Below, one piece after another: positions 1,362 to 60,401 of a stretch of DNA of 64,000 nt. The stretch spans positions 274,710 through 338,709 of the forward strand of contig ONNV01000003.1 of NCBI GenBank assembly GCA_900319225.1. The letters are read 5' to 3'. The translations under genes and the position numbers were made by a program. The notes beneath the pieces are model-generated. The model was not told the DNA's origin. It ran no database searches and was given only the letters and a program-made list of their open reading frames with translations. Every line of letters begins with the position of its first letter. Position 1 is the stretch's first letter. This stretch comes from an uncultured Prevotellaceae bacterium (GTDB taxonomy: Bacteria > Bacteroidota > Bacteroidia > Bacteroidales > Bacteroidaceae).

Positions 1362-3011
1362 TCATTCACCCGTCTCCATATACTTTACCGCCCGCAGTAT
1401 GGTCTCATCCAGCTCCTGGATGACCTGATAATAGGCGTTCATGCCCCAGATAAGACGTGCTATGCTGGCCTTGAGCTGTGTCTTGAATATGGGCAGGCTC
1501 TCGTTGTACTGCTCCTCATCAAAATCAACCTTGGCGTCACTGGCCTTGTCCTGGAAAAGCTTAAGCACGTCATTGCCCACCTCAAAACCGCGGTTATAGT
1601 CAGCGAATGTCCTGTAACGGCGCTGCAGCATACGTCTGTTACGCTCTGTGTACTGCATGGAGGTGTTCAGGACCACGTTCTTGGCTGTCACCTTACGGTA
1701 ATACTGGTTGGTACGGGTTGTATCCAGCGGTACGAATATATCGGGCATGATACCGCCTCCGCCATATACGGTACGGCGCTCTATCATGGTGCTGTACTTG
1801 AGTGAATCGGGGAAATGTATGCTGTCCCTGTTGGTAAGTTCTCCATGGTTAAGACGCTCCAGAATGTCATCACCGTAATCCACATCCTTGCCGTAAGGTT
1901 TCTGGATGCATCGGCCCACGGGAGTATAATACTTGGCTACGGTAAGACGTATCAGCGAGCCGTCATGGAACTCAATGGGACGCTGGACCAGGCCCTTGCC
2001 GAATGAGCGGCGGCCTACGATCGTAGCACGGTCCCAATCCTGTACTGCGCCCGATACAATCTCGCTGGCCGATGCCGAGTACTCATCAACCAGCACCACC
2101 ACCTTACCGTCACGGAAACGGCCTCGTCCGTCGGCCATATAGGCGCTGCGGGGTGAGCGTCGGCCCTCGGTGTAAACCACCATCTGGTCACGGTTAAGGA
2201 ACTCATTGGCTATACCCACGGCAGCCATCAGCAGGCCACCTCCGTTACCCTGCAGGTCCAGGATAAGTGACTGTGCACCCTGACGGCGCAGGTCAGAGAG
2301 TTTCTCCTCAAACTCCTGCACCGTGGTGGCTCCAAAGCTGGATATCTTTATGTATCCTATGCCCGGACGGATCATGTATCCGGCATCGACGGTATTTACG
2401 GGTATCTTGTCACGTGTAACCGTGAAATGTATCAGTTCATCCACTCCGCGGCGGTTTATGCCCAATACCACCTTGGTGCCTTTGGGGCCGCGCAGACGTT
2501 TCATTATGCTCTCCTGTGACATCTTGACTCCGGCAATGGCCGTGTCATTCACGGTCACAATACGGTCTCCGGCCAATATGCCCACCTTCTCCGACGGTCC
2601 GTCTGGTATGGGCTGTACTATGAACAGCGTATCCTCAACCATATTGAACTGCACGCCTATGCCCTCAAATGATCCCATCAGGGTCTCGTTTGACTTGTCA
2701 TTCTCCTCGGGGGTAAGGTATGTAGAGTGCGGGTCAAGCTCCTCAAGCATGCCTCTTATGGCGCTCTCAACTATCTTTTTCTCATCAACATCCTCCACAT
2801 AAAGGGCCGATATGGCACCCTCGGCTACCAGCAGTTTCTGCAACTCGGCATCAATTGAGGTAGCCTGCTGCTGCATCTGGGGTTGACGCTGTATCTGGGG
2901 TTGCATCTGGGGTTGACGCTGCTGGATCTGCGGCTGTCCTATACGTCCCGGCTGGGCCATAAGAGCCTGTGTAATGCAGAATGCTATGATCAGTGTATAT
3001 ATCTTTCTCAT
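1362..3011 (-). CDS. S41 family C-terminal processing peptidase (CtpA-like), 549 aa
   Basis: Secreted serine protease of the CtpA/tail-specific family. Residues 1-20 form a signal peptide (MRKIYTLIIAFCITQALMAQ). A glutamine/proline-rich repeat stretch (about 24-50) follows, then a PDZ domain (about 113-200), then the S41 protease core. The catalytic dyad is Ser314 in SASASE and Lys339 in FGKG, with Gln343 four residues on, exactly the 25- and 4-residue spacings of CtpB/CtpA. A TTG codon nine bases upstream could also start the frame, but the ATG at 3011 gives a proper signal peptide and sits five bases after the coaD stop. It is the last gene of the acetyltransferase/parE/coaD operon. It probably processes periplasmic or lipoprotein substrates; the target is unknown. 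Confidence 0.93.
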   Translation of the reverse strand: MRKIYTLIIAFCITQALMAQPGRIGQPQIQQRQPQMQPQIQRQPQMQQQATSIDAELQKLLVAEGAISALYVEDVDEKKIVESAIRGMLEELDPHSTYLTPEENDKSNETLMGSFEGIGVQFNMVEDTLFIVQPIPDGPSEKVGILAGDRIVTVNDTAIAGVKMSQESIMKRLRGPKGTKVVLGINRRGVDELIHFTVTRDKIPVNTVDAGYMIRPGIGYIKISSFGATTVQEFEEKLSDLRRQGAQSLILDLQGNGGGLLMAAVGIANEFLNRDQMVVYTEGRRSPRSAYMADGRGRFRDGKVVVLVDEYSASASEIVSGAVQDWDRATIVGRRSFGKGLVQRPIEFHDGSLIRLTVAKYYTPVGRCIQKPYGKDVDYGDDILERLNHGELTNRDSIHFPDSLKYSTMIERRTVYGGGGIMPDIFVPLDTTRTNQYYRKVTAKNVVLNTSMQYTERNRRMLQRRYRTFADYNRGFEVGNDVLKLFQDKASDAKVDFDEEQYNESLPIFKTQLKASIARLIWGMNAYYQVIQELDETILRAVKYMETGE

Positions 3012-51682: not shown

Positions 51683-52885
51683 TTATCTCTCTTCATCCGG
51701 ATGCACGCTATAGTAGGCACGCAGCGGAGTTGATGTGATCTTGATGAATCCCTTGGCGTCATCGGCAGTCCAGGCCTTGGCACCCTCACCGTACTCACCC
51801 AGCTTGTTGTGTACCAGGTCATCGGGAGTGTCACAACCTACGGTCTGGAAGCTGTAGGGACGGAGTTCCAATGTTACGGTACCGTTCACGTTACGCTGTG
51901 AGCTGGCCAGCATTGCCTCGATATCGGGCATTACAGGCTCCAGGTACTGTGACTCATGCAGGAACATGCCGTACCAGTTTGAAACCTGATCCTTCCAGTA
52001 CTGCTGCCACTTGGACAGGGTGTACTTCTCAAGGAAACGGTGTGCGCCGATGATCAGCATGGGGGCGGCAGCCTCAAAGCCCACGCGGCCCTTGATACCG
52101 ATGATGGTGTCACCAACATGGCAGTCACGGCCGATGGCATATGCGGCGCCAATCTTCTCAACCTCCTGGATAGCCTTGATACGGTCATCAAACTTCTTAC
52201 CGTTTACGGCAACCAACTCACCCTTCTCAAAGCCCAGACTCAGGATCTCAGAGCCCTCCTTGGTGGGGTGCTTAAGGTATGCGCTCTCAGGCAGGCCCTG
52301 CTTGCTGTCCAGTATCTCACCGCCGCAGATTGATGTACCCCAGATACCTACGTTGTAAGAGTACTTGAGTTTGGTGAAATCTGCACTGAAACCGTTGGCG
52401 TTCAGGTAGTCAATCTCCTCCTTACGGCTCAGGTTGCGGTCACGGGTAAGAGTGATGATCTCTACGCCGGGAGCCTTTACCAGGAATGTCATGTCAAAAC
52501 GGATCTGGTCGTTGCCGGCACCGGTTGAACCGTGTGCTATTGCATCGGCACCAATCTCATTGGCATACTTGGCAATGGCCAGAGCCTGGAAGATTCTCTC
52601 TGAAGAGACGGATATGGGGTAGCAGTTGTTACGCAGAACATTGCCAAAAACCATATATTTGAGTGACTTCTCATAATACTCCTGAGTCACGTCCAGAGTC
52701 ACATATTTAACGGCGCCCAGCTTGTAGGCGTTCTCCTCATTCTTCTTGAGCTGCTCGGGGCTGAAGCCACCGGTATTGGCACATGCGGCATAAACCTCAT
52801 ATCCCATCTCCTTTGTCAGGTACATTACGTTATAGCTGGTATCCAGACCTCCGGAAAAAGCTACTACAACTTTCTTCTTGCTCAT
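51683..52885 (-). CDS. argG: argininosuccinate synthase, 400 aa
   Basis: Joins citrulline and aspartate with ATP. The N-terminal PP-loop AFSGGLDTS is at 9-17, the citrulline/aspartate site includes GSTGAGNDQIRFD (about 115-127), and the rest follows the family at normal length. Its ATG is eight bases after the GNAT gene. Part of the ArgR-headed operon. Confidence 0.96.
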   Translation of the reverse strand: MSKKKVVVAFSGGLDTSYNVMYLTKEMGYEVYAACANTGGFSPEQLKKNEENAYKLGAVKYVTLDVTQEYYEKSLKYMVFGNVLRNNCYPISVSSERIFQALAIAKYANEIGADAIAHGSTGAGNDQIRFDMTFLVKAPGVEIITLTRDRNLSRKEEIDYLNANGFSADFTKLKYSYNVGIWGTSICGGEILDSKQGLPESAYLKHPTKEGSEILSLGFEKGELVAVNGKKFDDRIKAIQEVEKIGAAYAIGRDCHVGDTIIGIKGRVGFEAAAPMLIIGAHRFLEKYTLSKWQQYWKDQVSNWYGMFLHESQYLEPVMPDIEAMLASSQRNVNGTVTLELRPYSFQTVGCDTPDDLVHNKLGEYGEGAKAWTADDAKGFIKITSTPLRAYYSVHPDEER

Positions 52886-52893
52886 ATCTATTC

Positions 52894-53493
52894 TTATTTT
52901 TTGTTATCCAATTCCTTTATTCTCTTGAGTACGTCCTCAGACAGCTTGGCGGGAAGATACTCCTCAGGATCATAAAGCATACCTGTGCATATGCAGTACT
53001 TTCTGTTTGTGCGGTGCAGGATATCCACATTTACGCAACCCTCACAGCCTTTCCAGAAAGCCTCATCCTGGGTAAGGTCGGCAAATGTAACCGGTTTGTA
53101 ACCCAGCTGAGTGTTCATGGCCATCACCGCAGCACCGCTTGTAAGCGAGAATATCTTGGCGTGCGGCCAGCGAGTGCGGGCCAGAGTGAATGTCATATCC
53201 TTAATACGTTTGGCAAGTCCGCGTCCACGGTAATCGGGATGAACGATCAGGCCCGATGTGGTCACGTATTTCTTGTCCTGCCATGTCTCGATGTAACTGA
53301 ATCCGGCGAACTTGTCACCATCCAGCGCTATTACAGCCTTAGCTTCACGCATCTTGTTTGCCACGTACTCGTGGGTACGCTTAGCTATTCCGGTTCCGCG
53401 AACCTTAGCTGCTTCAGAAATGGTTTCCAGGATGGTGTCAACATACTTCTCGTGTGACTCATCAGCAACCACTACATCAATTACGTTTTCCAT
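52894..53493 (-). CDS. GNAT acyltransferase in the arginine operon; candidate glutamate N-acyltransferase, 199 aa
   Basis: GNAT fold with the acetyl-CoA signature in VHPDYRGRGLAKRIKDM (about 90-106) and a conserved YKPV-type end of the fold. The C-terminal 60 residues hold six cysteines, in CEGC, CIC and others, which is unusual. ArgA/ArgJ are absent from the operon. The gene sits between argR and argG, where in Bacteroides genomes a GNAT gene of the same length also lies. It is therefore the best candidate for the first step, N-acylation (succinylation) of glutamate. That activity is inference; it might instead acylate another amino group. Confidence 0.85.
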   Translation of the reverse strand: MENVIDVVVADESHEKYVDTILETISEAAKVRGTGIAKRTHEYVANKMREAKAVIALDGDKFAGFSYIETWQDKKYVTTSGLIVHPDYRGRGLAKRIKDMTFTLARTRWPHAKIFSLTSGAAVMAMNTQLGYKPVTFADLTQDEAFWKGCEGCVNVDILHRTNRKYCICTGMLYDPEEYLPAKLSEDVLKRIKELDNKK

Positions 53494-53522
53494 AATATAC
53501 CTTAAGTATAATGTCTGTATTT

Positions 53523-54005
53523 TTAGAGTGAAATAATTATCGGTTCAAGCAGGCGCTTTATCTCCATACGGTTGGCACCCTCGGCCAGAACAATAAGCAG
53601 GGTGTCATCGCCGGCTATGGTTCCCAGTACGCCGGGCAGGTTGTGGTTGTCAACGTCATATGCAAGGCTGCTTGCATATCCGGGCTTGGTCTTGATTACA
53701 GCCATATTGCCCGAGAAGTTCAACGATACGAAACCGTAACGGGGCTGGTTCATGGCTACCTCCTCCTGAGTGCTACCGGAGTTCTTTTTCTGCAGCAGAG
53801 CATGATTGGGCAGTACATATAAATAGTCACCATATGTATTGGCTACCTTTGAGATCTTCATTTTCTTAAGGTCTCTGGACAATGTTGCCTGGGTTACAGA
53901 GTAACCGCGTGCGTTGAGAACCTGCAGAAGCTGGTCCTGATTCTTGATATCCTGTTCCGATATGATCAGGCGGATAGCCTCCAAACGATTGTTCTTATTC
54001 TTCAT
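53523..54005 (-). CDS. argR: arginine repressor, 160 aa
   Basis: The ATG at 54005 starts MKNKNNRLEAIRLIISEQ; the TTG-start extension was dropped. The N-terminal winged helix has the ArgR recognition helix SVTQATLSRDLKKMKI (about 38-53). The C-terminal hexamerisation/arginine-binding domain ends with GTIAGDDTLLIVLAEGANRM. In most bacteria it represses arg genes with arginine as corepressor. Heads the arg operon; AT-rich upstream sequence with an inverted repeat (54069-54089) may be its operator. Confidence 0.93.
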   Translation of the reverse strand: MKNKNNRLEAIRLIISEQDIKNQDQLLQVLNARGYSVTQATLSRDLKKMKISKVANTYGDYLYVLPNHALLQKKNSGSTQEEVAMNQPRYGFVSLNFSGNMAVIKTKPGYASSLAYDVDNHNLPGVLGTIAGDDTLLIVLAEGANRMEIKRLLEPIIISL

Positions 54006-54032
54006 ATTGCATAAATATTCTCGTTTCGGGTG

Positions 54033-54040
54033 CAAAATTA
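54033..54040 (-). promoter_or_regulatory. -7 box (TAATTTTG) for the argR operon
   Basis: A minus-strand TAATTTTG, 28 bases before the argR ATG. Upstream DNA is almost pure AT, with no distinct -33 box. Confidence 0.5.
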
Positions 54041-54068
54041 GAGATAAAATTTATTCATTATACATTAA

Positions 54069-54089
54069 TTTGCCAAATAAATATGCAAA
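54069..54089 (-). promoter_or_regulatory. candidate operator: imperfect inverted repeat upstream of argR
   Basis: The sequence TTTGCC then AAATAAATA then TGCAAA is a short imperfect inverted repeat in an AT-rich tract just upstream of the argR -7 box. ArgR boxes are AT-rich palindromes of about 18 bases, so this is plausible, but the E. coli consensus is not met. Low confidence. Confidence 0.3.
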
Positions 54090-54100
54090 AATCCTTTAAA

Positions 54101-54138
54101 TACAACGAGAGGCGGCCGTTCTGCCACCTCTCGTTGTA
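54101..54138 (-). terminator. intrinsic terminator of the inositol-phosphate synthase gene
   Basis: TACAACGAGAGG (54101-54112) and CCTCTCGTTGTA (54127-54138) pair perfectly over 12 bp with a GC-rich loop. On the minus strand TTTAAAGGATTTTT follows. It lies 30 bases after the synthase stop. Confidence 0.8.
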
Positions 54139-54168
54139 TACACTATCTATTGTATATTCCTATGTATA

Positions 54169-55494
54169 TCAATCCAATTCCTGATCGGCCTCATAGCCGC
54201 CAAGCAGACGTATCTGGTTCTTGAGCATTGCAAACTGCTGGAACAGGTCATGCACGGGGCGCTCATCATCATAGGTCATAGGTTTCTTGACGTAGAATGA
54301 GAGCCACTCCTGGACACCTGTAAGTCCGGCCCTCAGGGCCAGATCGGTAAAGAGCATCAGGTCCAGGCAGATGGGAGCTGCCAGTATCGAGTCACGGCAC
54401 AGGAAATTGACCTTTATCTGCATGGGATAGTTCATCCAGCCGAATATGTCAATATTGTCCCAACTCTCCTTGTTGTCCTTACGCGGAGGATAGTAGTTGA
54501 TCTTTACCTTATGATATATATCAGAGTAGAGTTCAGGATACTGATCCTGTTCCAGAATCCACTCTATTGATGAAGCCTTGCTTATGCGCTTGGTCTCAAA
54601 GTTATCAGGGTGCTCAATCACCTGACCGTCACGGTTACCAAGGATATTGGTTGAGAACCAGCCCTCTACACCCAGCATGCGGGTACGGAATATGGGAGCC
54701 ATGGCACTCTTCATCATGGTCTGGCCGCTCTTGAAGTCCTTACCTACTATAGGAAGGCCCTGTTTCTTGGAGAGTTCAAAGAATGCGGGTATGTCAACGC
54801 ATACGTTTGGAGCACCCATAATGAAGGGGCAACCCTCCATCAGTGCTGCGTATGCATAAATCATGCTTGGAGGCAGGTGCTTGCGGTCATCGGCCTTCAT
54901 GGCAGCCTCAAATCCGGCAAGTGAGCCGTGAACCTGCTCGTTACGCGGGGTATAAGACTCCGTGCTGGCAATCCAGAACACGATCACGCGGCTGCAGCCG
55001 TTCTCCTTCTTAAAATTCTGGATATCGCGGCGCAGGTTCTGGGCGTAGTTCCAGCGGGTATCATCGGGCATAGCCCAGAGCGGATCGGGCACGCGGCCGA
55101 ATGAGGGGTCCACCAGGTTATGCGCAAAATTCTCATCAAAGCAGGCCTTCATAGGCTTGATGCGCTCCAACTCGTCACGCACCGGCTCAATATCCTCACG
55201 CTTAAGTACCTGGCAGTAGAGAGCGCTCTCATATGCGTTGTCGGTAAATACATCCCAAGCTCCAAATACCACATCCTTGAGGTCTGCCATGGGAACAATC
55301 TCACCCACATGCTTGTACTGCTTGTTCTCACCGCGTCCCACACGCATCTTACCCAGCTGCGTGAATGAACCTACAGGGTTGGCAAGTCCTTTCCTAGCCA
55401 TCAGAGTACCGGTAATGAAGGTAGTCGTAACCGCACCAAGTCCTACACACAGCACTCCAAGCTTACCCTCTGCCGGCTTTATATTCATTGTCAT
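54169..55494 (-). CDS. myo-inositol-1-phosphate synthase, 441 aa
   Basis: Converts glucose 6-phosphate to inositol 3-phosphate in an NAD-dependent reaction. The start MTMNIKPAEGKLGVLCVGLG leads into the dinucleotide-binding glycines (GLGAVTTTFITG). Conserved parts are RNAQNL-type RRDIQNFKKENG, WIASTESYTPRNEQVHG, and the C-terminal DSILAAPICLDLM. In Bacteroides the homologue (BT_1526) feeds inositol-lipid synthesis. No PI synthase or other inositol gene is beside it. A second ATG six bases downstream is possible. The transcript ends in the 54101-54138 terminator. Confidence 0.94.
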   Translation of the reverse strand: MTMNIKPAEGKLGVLCVGLGAVTTTFITGTLMARKGLANPVGSFTQLGKMRVGRGENKQYKHVGEIVPMADLKDVVFGAWDVFTDNAYESALYCQVLKREDIEPVRDELERIKPMKACFDENFAHNLVDPSFGRVPDPLWAMPDDTRWNYAQNLRRDIQNFKKENGCSRVIVFWIASTESYTPRNEQVHGSLAGFEAAMKADDRKHLPPSMIYAYAALMEGCPFIMGAPNVCVDIPAFFELSKKQGLPIVGKDFKSGQTMMKSAMAPIFRTRMLGVEGWFSTNILGNRDGQVIEHPDNFETKRISKASSIEWILEQDQYPELYSDIYHKVKINYYPPRKDNKESWDNIDIFGWMNYPMQIKVNFLCRDSILAAPICLDLMLFTDLALRAGLTGVQEWLSFYVKKPMTYDDERPVHDLFQQFAMLKNQIRLLGGYEADQELD

Positions 55495-55518
55495 GTCTTT
55501 TCTGCTCTTTATAACAAG

Positions 55519-55526
55519 CAAATGTA
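55519..55526 (-). promoter_or_regulatory. -7 box (TACATTTG) for the inositol-phosphate synthase gene
   Basis: A minus-strand TACATTTG, 25 bases before the first ATG. The 83-bp tandem array begins 78 bases further upstream. Confidence 0.5.
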
Positions 55527-55603
55527 CTTCAAAAAACCGACATTGTCCATTTATTTTCCAAGAATATGCATTTTCTGTCCGCCTACCCCCTGACCTTACC
55601 GCC

Positions 55604-56345
55604 CACCTTAGGGATGAAAATGGCTGTACCTGCGTTGTAGATCCCTAAGGTCAAGGGGTAACGCAGGTACGAGCGTATTTACGGCGCACCTTAGGGAGAA
55701 AAATGGCCACACCTGCGTGCTGGCTCCCTAAGGTCAGGGGGCTGCGCAGGTACGAGCGTATTTCCTGCTCACCTTAGGGAGAAAATAGGCTCCACCTGCG
55801 TTCTGGCTCCCTAAGGTCAGGGGGTAACGCAGGTACGAGCGTATTTACGGCCCACCTTAGGGAGAAAAATGGCCACACCTGCGTTCTGGCTCCCTAAGGT
55901 CAGGGGGTAACGCAGGTGCGAGCGTATTTCCTGCGCACCTTAGGGAGAGAAATGGCTGTACCTGCGTTCTGACCCCCTAAGGTCAGGGGGCAACGCAGGT
56001 ACGAGCGTATATCCTGCTCACCTTAGGGAGAGAAATGGCCACACCTGCGTTGTGGCTCCCTAAGGTCAGGGGGTAACGCAGGTACGAGCGTATTTACGGC
56101 GCACCTTAGGGAGAAAAATGGCCACACCTGCGTTCTGGCTCCCTAAGGTCAAGGGGGTAACGCAGGTTCTGGCGTATTTACGGCCCACCTTAGGGAGAGA
56201 AATGGCCACACCTGCGTTCCAGCTCCCTAAGGTCAGGGGTACACCCGCGAAAAAACCATTCTTCGGCTCACGTTGGGGACGAAAAATGGCTTCTACGCTG
56301 TATGATTCCCTAAGGTCAGGGGGCGTTGAAGAGAATTTACACCAT
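55604..56345. repeat. nine tandem 83-bp units with interleaved palindromes
   Basis: Units start at 55604, 55687, 55770, 55853, 55936, 56019, 56102, 56186 and 56269; all are 83 bp except the seventh (84), and the ninth is degenerate. In a unit, ACCTTAGGGA (positions 2-11), ACCTGCGTT (25-33), TCCCTAAGGT (39-48) and AACGCAGGT (57-65) make two perfect palindromes in the order 1-2-1'-2'. Linkers alternate between TTTACGG and TTTCCTG types in the first four units. A partial inverted unit (55584-55598) starts the array. It fills the 880-base gap between two divergent genes. No coding frame is credible in it. Confidence 0.95.
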
Positions 56346-56370
56346 AATGAGTTAGAAAAGCAGAAATGAT

Positions 56371-56378
56371 TACCTTTG
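56371..56378 (+). promoter_or_regulatory. -7 box (TACCTTTG) for the DUF1648-type gene
   Basis: A plus-strand TACCTTTG, 24 bases before the ATG at 56402. It also shows that the in-frame upstream ATG at 56366 is not the start, because it lies before the promoter. Confidence 0.5.
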
Positions 56379-56401
56379 CTGAGGACTATAAAATACATAA
56401 T

Positions 56402-56824
56402 ATGAAATGGCGTAAGTACGGATGGATGGTGCCGGTAATCATCATCATTGTGAATGTGTGTGCAATATGGATAAGGTGGAGTGCCCTGCCCCATGTGCTT
56501 CCGGCCCACTTTGACCCCGCAGGCAATGCCAGTGGATCCATGGACAGGACAACGCTGATATACTACCCCATTATCAGCCTCATGCTGTGCCTGGTTACAT
56601 ACGGTATTTATACCTTGGCCAACAACATGTTCAAATTAAGGCCCGATGAAAAAGGCCTGCGCCTTTGCGGACTACACGTGTTTGCATCCTGTCTGGCGCT
56701 CACCGTCCTGAGCTCAACACTCGTAACGCTCACCATGGGCACCAACCCGCTCTTTATGTTTGCCGAGCCGGTACTCATGCTGGCCGGAATAATCACCTTG
56801 ATAATCTGCCTGATAAAAAAGTAA
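56402..56824 (+). CDS. DUF1648-type small membrane protein, 140 aa
   Basis: Four hydrophobic helices. The N-terminal stretch contains LPAHFDPAGNASG, the usual DUF1648 signature (SdpI/SdpR-type proteins). Helices are at about 6-25, 45-65, 80-100 and 110-130. DUF1648 proteins include immunity proteins such as SdpI, but most members are uncharacterised. A second small membrane protein follows seven bases on. Confidence 0.8.
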   Translation: MKWRKYGWMVPVIIIIVNVCAIWIRWSALPHVLPAHFDPAGNASGSMDRTTLIYYPIISLMLCLVTYGIYTLANNMFKLRPDEKGLRLCGLHVFASCLALTVLSSTLVTLTMGTNPLFMFAEPVLMLAGIITLIICLIKK

Positions 56825-56831
56825 TATTGCA

Positions 56832-57131
56832 ATGCTGATCGCTTTCATAGTCATTGAGATTATTAGCCTTGTTATGGCAACGCTTATCCTGTCGGGTAAG
56901 ATGGATAACTTTATCCGGAACAGTTTTGAGTTAACACCCAAAGATGCCGGGAAGTTTGACATCAGACGTCTGAGGATTCTTATGGGTGCATTCTTTTTAA
57001 TCCTGATACCTATATCCTGTCTCCTCCTTTTCACTGAAAGCACAAATTGGGCAGGACACGCGTTAACCGCATCCACATTCTTTCTGGTTATAGTATATTA
57101 CATACTTGTCTATACGTGGGCTAAAAAATAG
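56832..57131 (+). CDS. small integral membrane protein, DUF3784-like, 99 aa
   Basis: Three membrane helices (about 3-22, 50-68, 76-95) with a hydrophilic loop NFIRNSFELTPKDAGKFDIRR between the first two. It resembles the small DUF3784-type membrane proteins of Bacteroidota, but I would not insist. It is seven bases after the DUF1648 gene and probably cotranscribed. Its end overlaps the convergent GH97 gene end by 11 bases. Confidence 0.65.
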   Translation: MLIAFIVIEIISLVMATLILSGKMDNFIRNSFELTPKDAGKFDIRRLRILMGAFFLILIPISCLLLFTESTNWAGHALTASTFFLVIVYYILVYTWAKK

Positions 57132-58881
57132 CCACGAATCCACCACGGGCGGGAAGCACTAACTTATCGGCTTTAACGTTTTGGCCGATGTCAAAACCCT
57201 GGCCGGGCTCGCTGCCTCGGTCGGTGATTAGAGTCTTGAGCACAACCGACTTGCCGATTCTGGAGTAATCAGGCTCAATAGTGAGTTCCTCATTTGTGCC
57301 GTTGATGCCTGCAATGTACCAGGTATCGCCATGTCGGCGCGCAATCACGGCGCTCTTTCCGGGATAGCCGGCCAGCAGGCGGGTATCGTCCCAGGCCGAT
57401 GGCAGACCGGACAGCAATGAACGCACCTGCTCAGGCAGGTTCAGGTATGCCTCGGGGCGGTCAGCCATATGCTGCAGGCCGGACTCAAAGAGGATGGGCA
57501 GTGCCAGCTCATGACAATCGGTAGTGATATGCGGGTTCTGGCTGTCGGTAAAGGTGCAAGGCGTATAATCCATCGGACCTATTACATTGCGGGTAAAAGG
57601 CAGCGTGGCGTTGTGTGCAGCGGCGGCATTCGTCATGCGGCGGTTGTTGTTGTACCACTCGGCGCCATAGACTGCCTCCATAGACATCAGGTTGGGCCAG
57701 GTGCGGCTCCATCCGCGCGGAATGGTGCATCCGTGGAAATCAACCAGCAGATGGTGTCGGGCCGCATCCTCCAGTATATCCAGATAGTAATCTACCATCT
57801 CGTGGCCGTCGGGAAGGAAGAAATCCACCTTGATGCCGGTGGCTCCCATCTGCTCCAGGCGGGTCATCTCACGCTCACGGGCCTCACGGGTGCGCAGACG
57901 GTCCTGCGGGCCGGGAGCGCCGTTTCCAATCCACGATGTGCCGGAGTTGTACCAGAGATTAACCTTGACACCCTTCTCACGGGCGTAGGCCATAGCGTCC
58001 TCTATAGCACCGCCGCCGGCCATCTCATCCCACTCCCAGTCAATCAGAGTATAGGGCCAGCCCATATCGTGTGCCAGGTCAATGTACTCCTTGACCTTCT
58101 GGAAATCCTTTGAGCTGTGGTTGTAAGCCCAGTAAATCCATGACGATACGCCCGGCTTGATCCAGGATTTATCGGTAACGGTGCCTCCGCCGGCCACATC
58201 GGTCACAAGCGTGGATTCAACGATATCGGCCAGCGAGCCCAGCATCAGGATACGCCACGCATGGACATCGGTCTCATCATTATCGGTGTAAGTCACAGTG
58301 TAGCGGTCGCCGCTGCAGGTCAGGTATGAGCAGCTGTTACCATGATTTATGCCCGACTCCGTTATCAGCCCAAACATGCCGTCTGCATATTCCACGAGTG
58401 CAGGATAGCTGTATTTGCCGTCTGCGGCCTGCGAGCTCTCAGGGTAGAATCCCTCATAATCAGTTTTCTGACGCTGCAGCCAGCGTTTGGTGCCGTCGGG
58501 GATTACGAACGAAACATGCTCATCGGCCCCGTTGAAACGGAACGCCACGCCGTCATTTGATACCCTTACAAGCAGATTCTTTCCCTGGGCGTCACTGCAT
58601 GACATCGCCCTGTATTTATAGGTGCATTCCCTGCGCTTGCCGGAGAGCATGGTGTATCTCTCCTCAACCGTCTCCACAATCCGGGAACTCTCAGTCCAAA
58701 AGTTGTCACCTATCCTGATGGTCTGCACCACCTTACCGCCATATCTGACTGTCATTATGCTGTCCGATACAGACACCCTGATATTCTTATCGGGCGAACT
58801 GATTTGGGCAATCCTGGTGTAACAACTCTCCAAAAGCAATGCTCCAAGCAACGCTACCACTGAAAACAATCTGATTCTCAT
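57121..58881 (-). CDS. glycoside hydrolase family 97 lipoprotein, 586 aa
   Basis: A lipobox LLESC (Cys20) gives a lipid-anchored enzyme. The N-terminal beta-supersandwich (about 25-220) has SSPDKNIRVSVS and NDGVAFRFNG. The barrel has GVSSWIYWAYNHSS, YTLIDWEWDE and the nucleophile-type Asp353 in GIKVDFF, which is the arrangement of retaining GH97 alpha-galactosidases rather than of the inverting SusB-type glucosidases. The C-terminal beta domain ends GGFVAIF. At 586 residues it is shorter than the usual 640-700. The sugar specificity is inferred. Confidence 0.9.
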   Translation of the reverse strand: MRIRLFSVVALLGALLLESCYTRIAQISSPDKNIRVSVSDSIMTVRYGGKVVQTIRIGDNFWTESSRIVETVEERYTMLSGKRRECTYKYRAMSCSDAQGKNLLVRVSNDGVAFRFNGADEHVSFVIPDGTKRWLQRQKTDYEGFYPESSQAADGKYSYPALVEYADGMFGLITESGINHGNSCSYLTCSGDRYTVTYTDNDETDVHAWRILMLGSLADIVESTLVTDVAGGGTVTDKSWIKPGVSSWIYWAYNHSSKDFQKVKEYIDLAHDMGWPYTLIDWEWDEMAGGGAIEDAMAYAREKGVKVNLWYNSGTSWIGNGAPGPQDRLRTREAREREMTRLEQMGATGIKVDFFLPDGHEMVDYYLDILEDAARHHLLVDFHGCTIPRGWSRTWPNLMSMEAVYGAEWYNNNRRMTNAAAAHNATLPFTRNVIGPMDYTPCTFTDSQNPHITTDCHELALPILFESGLQHMADRPEAYLNLPEQVRSLLSGLPSAWDDTRLLAGYPGKSAVIARRHGDTWYIAGINGTNEELTIEPDYSRIGKSVVLKTLITDRGSEPGQGFDIGQNVKADKLVLPARGGFVAIF

Positions 58882-58930
58882 GACTGTACTAATGTAAACT
58901 GCGCCCTAAAATTAGATAATTTTGAAAAAA

Positions 58931-58961
58931 TGACGCAAAGGGGTCGTTTAGTTTTGCGTCA
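58931..58961 (-). repeat. 31-nt AAGGGG-loop hairpin (copy 1)
   Basis: TGACGCA and TGCGTCA close a 17-nt loop AAGGGGTCGTTTAGTTT. The last three bases are the stop codon (minus strand) of the neighbouring membrane-protein gene. Same family as 60484-60514 and the two halves of 34400-34499. Confidence 0.85.
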
Positions 58962-59906
58962 CTTCTTGCGGGTATTCTTAAACACTGTATAGAAAATATA
59001 TACAGTGAATGCCAACATAAAGAGTGACTTCCGGTCAAACATATTACCATCACTGATACCCATTACTATGTAATCAATGATGAAAAGAACTATTGATATG
59101 GTAAAAAGCACCAATAAGACAGTAGCATGTCTGAATTTCTCTCCTTTTACAATTCTCTCTATTGCAAAGGCTATTCCTACGGCTGCACATGCAAGGGTTA
59201 AAGGCATTGTAACACCTATCCATGTCAAACCGGTTTCAGGATAAGTCTTAAAAATGGCTATGGTATAAAGGACAATTCCGGCAACAATTATGAGTAATAC
59301 TATTGACAGCAATATGATTCCTACATTCTGACCGAACCGTCTGGCTGGCGAAGGCTCCACATCAATCCTTCCCTGCAACCCCTCTTTGTATGCCTTGACA
59401 AAGGTGCTGTAAAGCATAGGAAAACTAATCCCAAATAAAATGATAGAAATCATGATACCTGATGCCACACCTAAGAAAACAAACGTGAATGCCGCAATGA
59501 ATACGTCAGACATTGCCAATGTAATCAGAAAAGTCCTTCTGTATCTCTTCTCTCTGGTAAGAAGAGTGTTCAGGTCCAGTCTGACAAAATCCTTACGGGT
59601 GATTCTCCTGAGCAGGAAGGCTCCAATCAGAACGGTAACAAGACAATATATGCCTCCTGTAAGCAAAGCAACTTTTGACAGCCCTTCAAAACAATATAAG
59701 AAAGCCATAAAAACCAGGAAGGCAATAGGGATGCCTGATATAAGAGTAGATTTCAGTTCCGTCTCAAGAAGGCCCACCTTCTCCATAGTAGCCGCGCGTA
59801 TCTGGTCAGGGGTTACAATCTCCTGAGTATCCAGTTTCTCATCCATCAGTCTGATAGTATCCTTGAACTCTTCAAGCTCATCAATCTTTATATTCTCACT
59901 AGTCAT
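58959..59906 (-). CDS. multi-helix membrane protein encoded with an ECF sigma factor, 315 aa
   Basis: No named family that I recognise. A charged cytosolic N-terminus of about 55 residues (ENIKIDELEEFKDTIRLMDE) precedes eight hydrophobic segments (about 57-75, 78-98, 125-145, 148-168, 195-222, 230-248, 265-280, 290-310). The N-terminus shows no anti-sigma signature, but its position 12 bases after an ECF sigma gene is typical of a membrane-bound anti-sigma factor or sensor in Bacteroidota. The gene pair is flanked by direct copies of a 31-nt hairpin. Confidence 0.75.
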   Translation of the reverse strand: MTSENIKIDELEEFKDTIRLMDEKLDTQEIVTPDQIRAATMEKVGLLETELKSTLISGIPIAFLVFMAFLYCFEGLSKVALLTGGIYCLVTVLIGAFLLRRITRKDFVRLDLNTLLTREKRYRRTFLITLAMSDVFIAAFTFVFLGVASGIMISIILFGISFPMLYSTFVKAYKEGLQGRIDVEPSPARRFGQNVGIILLSIVLLIIVAGIVLYTIAIFKTYPETGLTWIGVTMPLTLACAAVGIAFAIERIVKGEKFRHATVLLVLFTISIVLFIIDYIVMGISDGNMFDRKSLFMLAFTVYIFYTVFKNTRKK

Positions 59907-59918
59907 AGCACAAACATT

Positions 59919-60401
59919 TTAATTGTTAGACATTGATTTGAGCTGCTCCTTGATGCGGAACAGACGACTCGTAACAGCCTGGGTGCTTATACCCACAATG
60001 GCTGCAATCTCATCATAACTCATGCTTTCAAGCCACAGAAGAATGATTGCCCTGTCAAAAACCTCCAGTTTGTTGATCCTGTCATACAGCATCTTAACCT
60101 GTCGGCCCACCTGGTCTTGTTCACTGAACAGGTCCCTGTCGATGGCAAGCGGAACGGTTGGTACACTGCGGCTGTTCCTTTTCTGAATGGAGCAACAGGT
60201 GTTAAGACTGATTCGCCAGATCCATGTCTTTGGGCTGCTCTCGTTACGGAACTCAGGAAATCCTTTCCATAGATTAACCAACACCTCTTGGAAAAGGTCA
60301 TCGACAACTGTCGGATTGTCAGAGAAGAAATAACACACCGAATATATTGTCTTGCGGTGCTCTCTGACCATTTTTGTGAATTGTAATTCTAAATCTTTCA
60401 T
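59919..60401 (-). CDS. ECF-type RNA polymerase sigma factor, 160 aa
   Basis: Region 2 is VDDLFQEVLVNLWKGFPEF with the following WIWRISLN; region 4 is RAIILLWLESMSYDEIAAIV then GISTQAVTSRLFRIKEQLK. The ATG at 60401 is preferred to a GTG 45 bases upstream because it starts MKDLELQFTKMVREHRKTIY, the usual family N-terminus. It is likely to drive its own operon and its membrane partner. An imperfect palindrome (60411-60444) lies just upstream. Confidence 0.92.
   Translation of the reverse strand: MKDLELQFTKMVREHRKTIYSVCYFFSDNPTVVDDLFQEVLVNLWKGFPEFRNESSPKTWIWRISLNTCCSIQKRNSRSVPTVPLAIDRDLFSEQDQVGRQVKMLYDRINKLEVFDRAIILLWLESMSYDEIAAIVGISTQAVTSRLFRIKEQLKSMSNN

Follow-up and report, generated by a model that had tools for sequence, protein, structure and literature searches.

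A tandem array of hairpin modules upstream of ino1 in an uncultured Prevotellaceae bacterium probably belongs to a REP-like family served by a divergent RAYT at the recA locus

Dispersed palindromes linked to a transposase-like gene are known from E. coli and Pseudomonas, where REP and REPIN sequences accompany RAYT (TnpA-REP) genes. In P. fluorescens the REPINs are reported by Bertels and Rainey to form ordered tandem clusters, with three higher-order clusters situated beside RAYTs (PMC3116915). REP dissemination is described as poorly understood (PMC8266576). A TnpA-Y1 subclass 2.6, mostly from Bacteroidetes, is characterised by Quentin et al. (2018, PMC6006769) as being flanked by atypical structures without GT[AG]G that have copies elsewhere in the genome; according to the same paper other TnpA-Y1 subclasses, not REP-associated, have a large conserved C-terminal domain. 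Finally, the BrickBuilt element of Porphyromonas gingivalis is presented as a minisatellite-containing MITE (PMC4596501).

The locus considered here is an intergenic array of hairpin modules within a stretch of 64,000 nucleotides (the window) from an uncultured Prevotellaceae bacterium. It consists of the following features, listed with the two neighbouring genes:

54169 to 55521, minus strand: left neighbour, inositol-1-phosphate synthase (ino1; PF07994/PF01658)
55584 to 56324, plus strand: whole array, nine modules and an outer half-module, spacing 83 bp, once 84 bp
55584 to 55598, plus strand: outer edge TACCCCCTGACCTTA, a degenerate half-module complementary to TAAGGTCAGGGGGTA (inverted repeats)
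55604 to 55651, plus strand: module 1 hairpin with A (CACCTTAGGGA), a 27-nt loop containing B, and A' (TCCCTAAGGT)
55652 to 55686, plus strand: spacer 1, CAAGGGG followed by B' (AACGCAGGT) and GCGTATTT
55687 to 55769, plus strand: module 2 and spacer
55770 to 55852, plus strand: module 3 and spacer
55853 to 55935, plus strand: module 4 and spacer
55936 to 56018, plus strand: module 5 and spacer, one change in the A' arm (CCCCCTAAGG)
56019 to 56101, plus strand: module 6 and spacer
56102 to 56185, plus strand: module 7 and spacer, 84 bp
56186 to 56268, plus strand: module 8, its spacer of the CCGCG type and diverged
56269 to 56324, plus strand: module 9, degenerate terminal module
56366 to 56824, plus strand: right neighbour, DUF1648 protein (28.8 bits against a cut-off of 28.7, just reached)

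Tandem Repeats Finder called the array from 55596 to 56239 with a period of 83, 7.7 copies and 87% matches. The nine hairpin modules, the ninth of them degenerate, share one orientation and start at intervals of 83 bp with a single spacing of 84 bp (left coordinates of modules 1 to 9 above), which bears out the nine tandem 83-bp units, and their coordinates, in a first-pass annotation of this DNA. That annotation had also proposed two palindromes interleaved as 1-2-1'-2', linkers of alternating type over the first four units and inositol-phosphate synthase and DUF1648 genes as neighbours. All three points were recovered, the last by Pfam matches and the first as the order A-B-A'-B' in each module, with A arms ACCTTAGGGA / TCCCTAAGGT and B arms ACCTGCGTT / AACGCAGGT. 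A module thus runs from A through the B-bearing loop to A' and is followed by the B'-bearing spacer. The A hairpin has a 10-bp stem and a loop of 27–28 nt, making a module of 48 nt, and the spacer comprises about 35 nt; spacers 2–7 of the window resemble spacer 1. TAAGGTCAGGGGGTA, the sequence complementary to the outer edge, is the stretch covering A' and the start of the spacer in several units. Since the array opens with A and closes with A', a build shared by most other arrays of the genome, n hairpins enclose n-1 spacers. The longest unbroken B stem measures 7–11 bp in seven of the eight window units scored and 3 bp in the other (unit 9 scored too low to pass the filter).

Several known kinds of repeat were considered and rejected. 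Coding repeats were ruled out, as only short open frames cross the array, and because 83 is not a multiple of three no single frame reads alike through successive units. A known RNA family was rejected after a search of positions 52000–60000 gave no Rfam match at E<=1. The anatomy rules out a CRISPR array, as the spacers are themselves repeated and not unique. The palindromes of integron attC sites are nested as 1-2-2'-1', and the order 1-2-1'-2' found here led us to reject this candidate as well.

The array belongs to a genome-wide family. Two units of the window used as query gave 62 matches in the window's own genome (G000; 2.53 Mb in 17 contigs, 85% complete), and 19 arrays were delimited (20 table rows, one being the inverted end module of the array at L027). 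Within an array, 99 bases at the end of contig C7 are identical to those at the start of contig C5, so that the arrays represent about 18 loci. The perfect A hairpin is present 79 times in the genome, the reversed control pattern not at all. The arrays occupy intergenic DNA and run no more than 22 bp into the end of a gene, with open frames picked by length instead of by a gene caller and short frames inside the arrays set aside. Genes flank 16 arrays on both sides, in divergent (4), convergent (6) or co-directional (6) arrangement, and the three others reach a contig end; these mixed orientations argue against a dedicated promoter or terminator role.

Within each array the units are co-oriented, the only inverted module being the one at an end of the L027 array. 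Units are more alike within arrays than between them, both in the hairpin (0.88 versus 0.80) and in the spacer (0.73 versus 0.60). In 113 distinct complete units from several genomes 98.2% of the A-stem pairs are Watson–Crick, and the stem reaches at least 9 bp in 78 of the 88 units of the own genome that scored above 40 with a near-complete start (weaker ones such as window module 9 were dropped). Among 90 pattern-matched hairpins, GT[AG]G occurs within 6 nt on the 5' side in one and C[TC]AC within 6 nt on the 3' side in two; within 14 nt on the 3' side, i.e., in the spacer, GT[AG]G is found in 39. Super-units of 166 or 249 bp occur in some arrays, and some arrays have clearly changed by plain tandem duplication or deletion, for which no transposase is needed. 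A 64-bp unit with a 19-nt loop deletion (L024, 4082–4142) and a 99-bp unit with a 16-bp duplication (L021, 7749–7843) are ordinary indel decay inside arrays. Contig ends are situated inside arrays at the start of C5 and at the ends of C7 and C8; together with the C7/C5 overlap this indicates that the repeats break the assembly.

On contig C8 a 322-aa open frame (L021, 4512–5480, minus strand) is located between tex and recA with an array on each side. The protein matches the NCBIfam model NF047646, REP-associated tyrosine transposase, at E=7.6e-7 with 29.1 bits, which is below the cut-off of 80; eight of ten relatives match this model at E<=0.01. Pfam gave nothing at E<=0.001 for the 322-aa protein, Y1_Tnp reaching only E=0.019, and eight of the ten relatives match Y1_Tnp at E<=0.1 (best 0.00074). 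With the single sequence the sole PDB match at E<=1 is TnpA-REP, 4er8 (E=0.062); by profile TnpA-REP is the best match (E=0.4). The AlphaFold model is weak (mean pLDDT 45.6) and uninterpretable in its C-terminal half; residues 1–110 show the order strand-helix-strand-strand-helix-strand-helix. With this low-confidence model all 30 Foldseek matches at E<=0.001 are titled transposase (ISDra2, IS608, IS200 and others), and 4er8, in which TnpA-REP is bound to a REP hairpin, ranks 23rd. H50, H52 and Y107 are invariant in all ten aligned relatives. From its place in the motif, which reads Y-x-L-[RK]-N-[PG], Y107 is probably the catalytic residue. The protein also carries a long conserved C-terminal region. 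A second group of RAYT relatives has longer frames of about 380–400 aa (G036:C4:87120-88247, G006:C14:2413-3543 and similar), with additional in-frame stretches after query residues of about 60 and 138.

This RAYT gene is present in one copy in G000. When 295 genomes sampled from the order were searched with a profile of the ten relatives, two had a match at E<=1e-15, namely G000 and one other. A Y1_Tnp search of the own genome listed a different gene, the 322-aa gene being absent from the result. This second Y1_Tnp gene (L038, G000:C11:92882-96244; match 1501–1863, minus strand) has a 379-aa frame with NHVH and YIHQN motifs. Inverted repeats of the form GGGGACGGTTC...GAACCGTCCCC lie to either side of it, with motifs at 1032/1077 and 1973/2018. 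The same or similar GGGGACWGTCCCC motifs are also present in L022, L028, L032, L035 and L037 and upstream of ino1 in G012 (L103). The L038 gene and its inverted repeats are perhaps a second, independent RAYT-repeat system.

The unit was also looked for in other genomes, as the first-pass annotation had suggested. It was found in 18 of 61, all belonging to one genus that is represented by 37 genomes. By protein search, an orthologue of the RAYT with at least 89% identity is present in six of the 61 genomes (G000 included), again all of this genus. All six are repeat-positive, among 18 of 37 (p=0.008), and the repeat matches listed number from at least 4 up to 46 in them versus 0–14 in the other 31 (Mann–Whitney p=5e-5); these statistics are rough, the genomes being related and many of them incomplete and the counts per genome being lower bounds. 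Twelve of the 31 genus genomes without a close orthologue still hold the repeat, with up to 14 matches listed, which could reflect gene loss, assembly gaps or remnants. In some genomes the orthologue occurs together with more distantly related proteins. In all six orthologue genomes the gene lies beside recA and has arrays on both sides in its own orientation, the first downstream A arm starting 23–31 bases past the last sense codon. The named relatives are metagenome-assembled genomes from yak reticulum and water-buffalo omasum as well as RUG-numbered ones, which we take to be from the rumen.

Diverged RAYTs are accompanied by hairpins of their own. Relatives with 62% (L045), 53% (L046) and 52% (L047) identity have tandem arrays nearby whose period is 83 or 84 bp and whose outer stems are different; the downstream array of L046 is inverted and about 1 kb from the gene. 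A relative at 48% (L048) has on each side a pair of hairpins 84 bp apart, a number that the tandem-repeat finder does not pick up. The arms begin with ACGT, ACGA, AGGA or ACGA, and ATGT, respectively (62, 53, 52 and 48%), each time in front of TAGGGA, and the 3' arms mostly match; the stem changes are compensatory. At 42% identity (L065) tandem units of 95 bp are found on both sides (1138–1412 and 2454–2901) with the unrelated stem GCGGACACTA/TAGTGTCCGC, and no tandem array was found beside the genes of relatives at about 40% (L049–L052, L066, L067). RAYT-like genes with 27% identity have 52-bp tandem arrays nearby (L058, 942–1230 and 2582–3029; L060, 829–999 and 3491–3611).

For a covariation analysis 19 hairpins were chosen by hand from five genomes. 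In this set 98.4% of the A-stem cells pair, compared with 31–50% in slid registers. There are 14 double-change cells (shuffled mean 4.0) and the covariation score is 0.233 (shuffled 0.062), values that none of 500 shuffles reached. Two further measures are weaker, namely three pairs with two-sided changes (reached in 124 of 500 shuffles) and a count of five further pair types (13 of 500), and six of the ten A-stem pairs never vary. Part of the covariation signal is between-genome descent. Hairpins of the pattern TAGGGA-N26..30-TCCCTA number 87, 20, 43, 37, 6 and 38 in G000, G031, G016, G034, G013 and G036, the corresponding controls 0, 0, 2, 0, 0 and 0; among the matches listed, such hairpins recur elsewhere in the genomes of the relatives.

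The occupancy of the window's site differs between species. Thirty ino1 loci were fetched, 27 with 1.5 kb of upstream sequence and three with almost none. No module is present in 22 of the 27, and the occupied sites have 9 (L097, the window genome), 4 (L101), 3 (L098), 2 (L114) and 1 (L104), the last four counted by eye. Variation in copy number, which had been proposed as a check between strains, is found among five species at one site. The five occupied loci share a block directly upstream of ino1 and their arrays start at the same place beyond it; in four of them, the window and three relatives, a similar degenerate module ends the array. These arrays are best read as one old insertion in which the number of units changed later. 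L104 (G026) has a single hairpin without tandem copies at this site, with ino1 on the other strand, and is a candidate for a founder or a collapsed state. Upstream of prs an array at a distance of about 0.1 kb was found in one of 30 loci, that of the window genome; in one relative, L134, two modules lie at a distance of about 1 kb. An empty site with a target motif was not precisely defined.

The order of genes around recA varies as well. L127 and L128 read tex(-), array(-), recA(+), array(+), RAYT(+), array(+), and L129 and L130 have the same order without the first array. In L131 recA is inverted, and the window genome (L021) shows the order expected from inverting the recA–RAYT segment of an L131-like order. 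On this reading, and if the assemblies are right, recA and the recA–RAYT segment were inverted between species with breakpoints in oppositely oriented arrays; all these orders come from draft metagenome assemblies, in which misassembly is possible.

We consider it likely that the window array is a member of a REP-like tandem hairpin family served by the divergent single-copy RAYT at the recA locus. What was observed directly is the genome-wide spread of the family, the gene bracketed by its own repeats, the co-change of enzyme and hairpin with compensatory stems, and differences among species in site and copy number. Mobilisation by the RAYT, the strand used and the cut site are what we infer. 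In this reading the A hairpin is the working unit. The RAYT would bind it in single-stranded DNA, e.g., in the lagging-strand template, and would cut and rejoin near its foot, by which hairpins would be seeded in further intergenic regions. Re-insertion beside an existing hairpin or, as likely, slippage and recombination among the units would then extend such a seed into a tandem array. On this view the window array would not specifically serve ino1 or the DUF1648 gene, though it may affect both.

An alternative centred on the second helix is that each unit toggles between A and B hairpins, or forms an H-type pseudoknot, and in this way controls the transcription of its neighbours. In the 113 distinct complete units the B register pairs to 82.4% with G-T included (71.0% strict) versus 23–47% in slid registers, and position 27-63 changes from C-G (37 units) to G-C (31), along with G-G (30), C-C (12), A-C (2) and G-T (1). 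Spacer shuffles lower the pairing by 1.0–1.5 points. The observed value is matched in 6 of 1000 shuffles across all loci and in 1 of 1000 when spacers stay within their locus; with strict pairs only it is matched in 56 of 1000, which speaks against coupling. The mean B stem is 5.07. It drops to 4.71 when spacers are exchanged among all units, a length of 5.07 not being attained in any of 300 shuffles; exchange within arrays gives 4.97, with 13 of 300 attaining it, and this again counts against coupling. Loop and spacer fold at -11.05 kcal/mol, compared with -7.34 with scrambled spacers, and the A and B folds are similar in computed stability: in a pseudoknot-free DNA model the minimum-energy fold is the A hairpin in three of seven units and the competing B hairpin in four. 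In the analysis of loop plus spacer the B hairpin is the more stable fold in 51 of 58 units with CGCAGGT spacers and in 15 of 44 with CCGCG spacers. The window array also lies directly upstream of the block conserved before ino1. Against such a switch, the exact B pair CCTGCG/CGCAGGT is present in only 17 of the 88 own-genome units, 41 having the CCGCG spacer; a perfect second helix is confined to one type of spacer, the other type giving a partial one, so that a pseudoknot is possible without being the conserved core. Folding energy does not suffer when units exchange their spacers (57 of 60 shuffles over all units and 12 of 60 within loci are at least as stable), a duplex comparison between families found the own spacer best in one of ten rows with no consistent cognate preference, and RNAalifold gave almost no consensus structure for the B region. 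The evidence for B coupling is thus weak and mixed, and with no coupling in energy swaps and between-family duplexes we rejected the pseudoknot as conserved core. What stands of the pseudoknot proposed by the first-pass annotation is a near-invariant, covarying A stem and a partly retained B. Since, moreover, arrays occur between convergent, co-directional and divergent genes alike, most relatives have no array at the same site and the Rfam search mentioned above was negative, we regard a regulatory switch as very unlikely.

Passive minisatellites, i.e., hairpin-prone repeats that grow and shrink by replication slippage and recombination beside an incidental transposase, would account for the homogeneity within arrays, for the super-units and deleted units and for the range of one to nine modules at one site. 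They leave unexplained the dispersal to about 18 intergenic sites, the flanking of the RAYT in six of six genomes and the compensatory stems beside diverged RAYTs, and we judge this explanation to be unlikely on the whole, though slippage and recombination may be the main route of tandem growth once a site has been seeded. BIMEs of E. coli have been proposed as chromosome-structure sites. By analogy, the arrays could be putative sites for gyrase, IHF or a nucleoid protein at supercoiling or loop boundaries; they are intergenic, 83 bp corresponds to about eight helical turns, and 83–84 bp is kept in diverged families. Site occupancy is poorly conserved between species, however, and other spacings exist: one further family has units of 95 bp, and two that are more distant have units of 52 bp. 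As a primary explanation this is the least probable of all, while as a secondary role it is compatible with the RAYT reading.

Going beyond the RAYT reading, the system might represent an undescribed RAYT branch of rumen-type Bacteroidales, in which a Y1 enzyme with a dedicated C-terminal region builds and maintains uniform head-to-tail arrays with a lineage-specific stem code and in which inverted arrays, as recombination sites, flipped recA and the recA–RAYT segment; we put this forward tentatively, as somewhat less probable than its opposite. One genus offers closely related enzyme–repeat pairs with five stem codes, and more distant pairs with other unit lengths, so that recognition is directly testable by swapping pairs. 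Three further features stand out: an ino1 site that holds 1, 2, 3, 4 or 9 modules depending on the species, a GTAG-less repeat family next to an enzyme that has an additional region and, provided that the assemblies are correct, arrays at the points where DNA around recA was inverted.

Compared with known systems, the arrays resemble REPs and BIMEs in being dispersed, high-copy, extragenic palindromes able to form hairpins as single strands. With the REP/REPIN–RAYT systems of E. coli and Pseudomonas (PMC2817692, PMC3116915, PMC3733652, PMC6006769, PMC8266576) they share a single-copy HUH/Y1 gene flanked by its own repeat and a separate repeat type for every gene lineage, and with the REPINs reported for P. 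fluorescens the ordered tandem clusters beside RAYTs. The first-pass annotation knew of no described element of this form and had named a match to a described REP family as speaking against its view; through the linked RAYT gene the array largely is such a match, though the GTAG foot is missing, and the claim is not supported. In open-licence papers, consulted mostly at abstract level, we found no account of 83/84-bp hairpin arrays with a RAYT in Bacteroidales. As for the gene, the HUH and tyrosine residues are placed on a Y1 fold in the low-confidence model and the score stays below the NCBIfam curated cut-off, while the single copy, the stable place and the own flanking repeats are found beside recA in six of six genomes. 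In contrast to REPs and REPINs, the GT[AG]G foot is absent from the arrays (1 of 90 hairpins), the module is 48 nt long with a loop of 27–28 nt, and the units, which are not inverted pairs, follow one another uniformly head to tail at 83/84 bp; unlike known RAYTs, the protein has 322 aa with a conserved C-terminal region. The IS200/IS605 family has the catalytic fold, the HUH/Y1 residues and same-orientation hairpins on both sides of the gene in common with this system; here, however, the repeats are multicopy and the gene is not, with one copy in G000 and a place beside recA in six of six genomes. BrickBuilt likewise consists of dispersed tandem repeats in a Bacteroidales genome; it is described as a MITE that contains a minisatellite (PMC4596501). 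TnpA-Y1 subclass 2.6 shares the occurrence in Bacteroidetes, flanking structures without GT[AG]G and dispersed copies; it is tabled at apparently 179 aa with YIH[QN]NP, whereas the protein found here has 322 aa and Y-x-L-[RK]-N-[PG] (PMC6006769). The L038 Y1 gene with its YIHQN motif looks nearer to this subclass than the 322-aa gene does. Unlike in the subclasses that have a large conserved C-terminal domain and are not REP-associated (PMC6006769), a long C-terminal region and flanking repeats co-occur here. With uniform direct arrays, a larger hairpin, no GT[AG]G at the foot and an enzyme with a long C-terminal region, the family is not one that we class as canonical REP; it looks like a new variant that works like REP rather than an unknown class of element.
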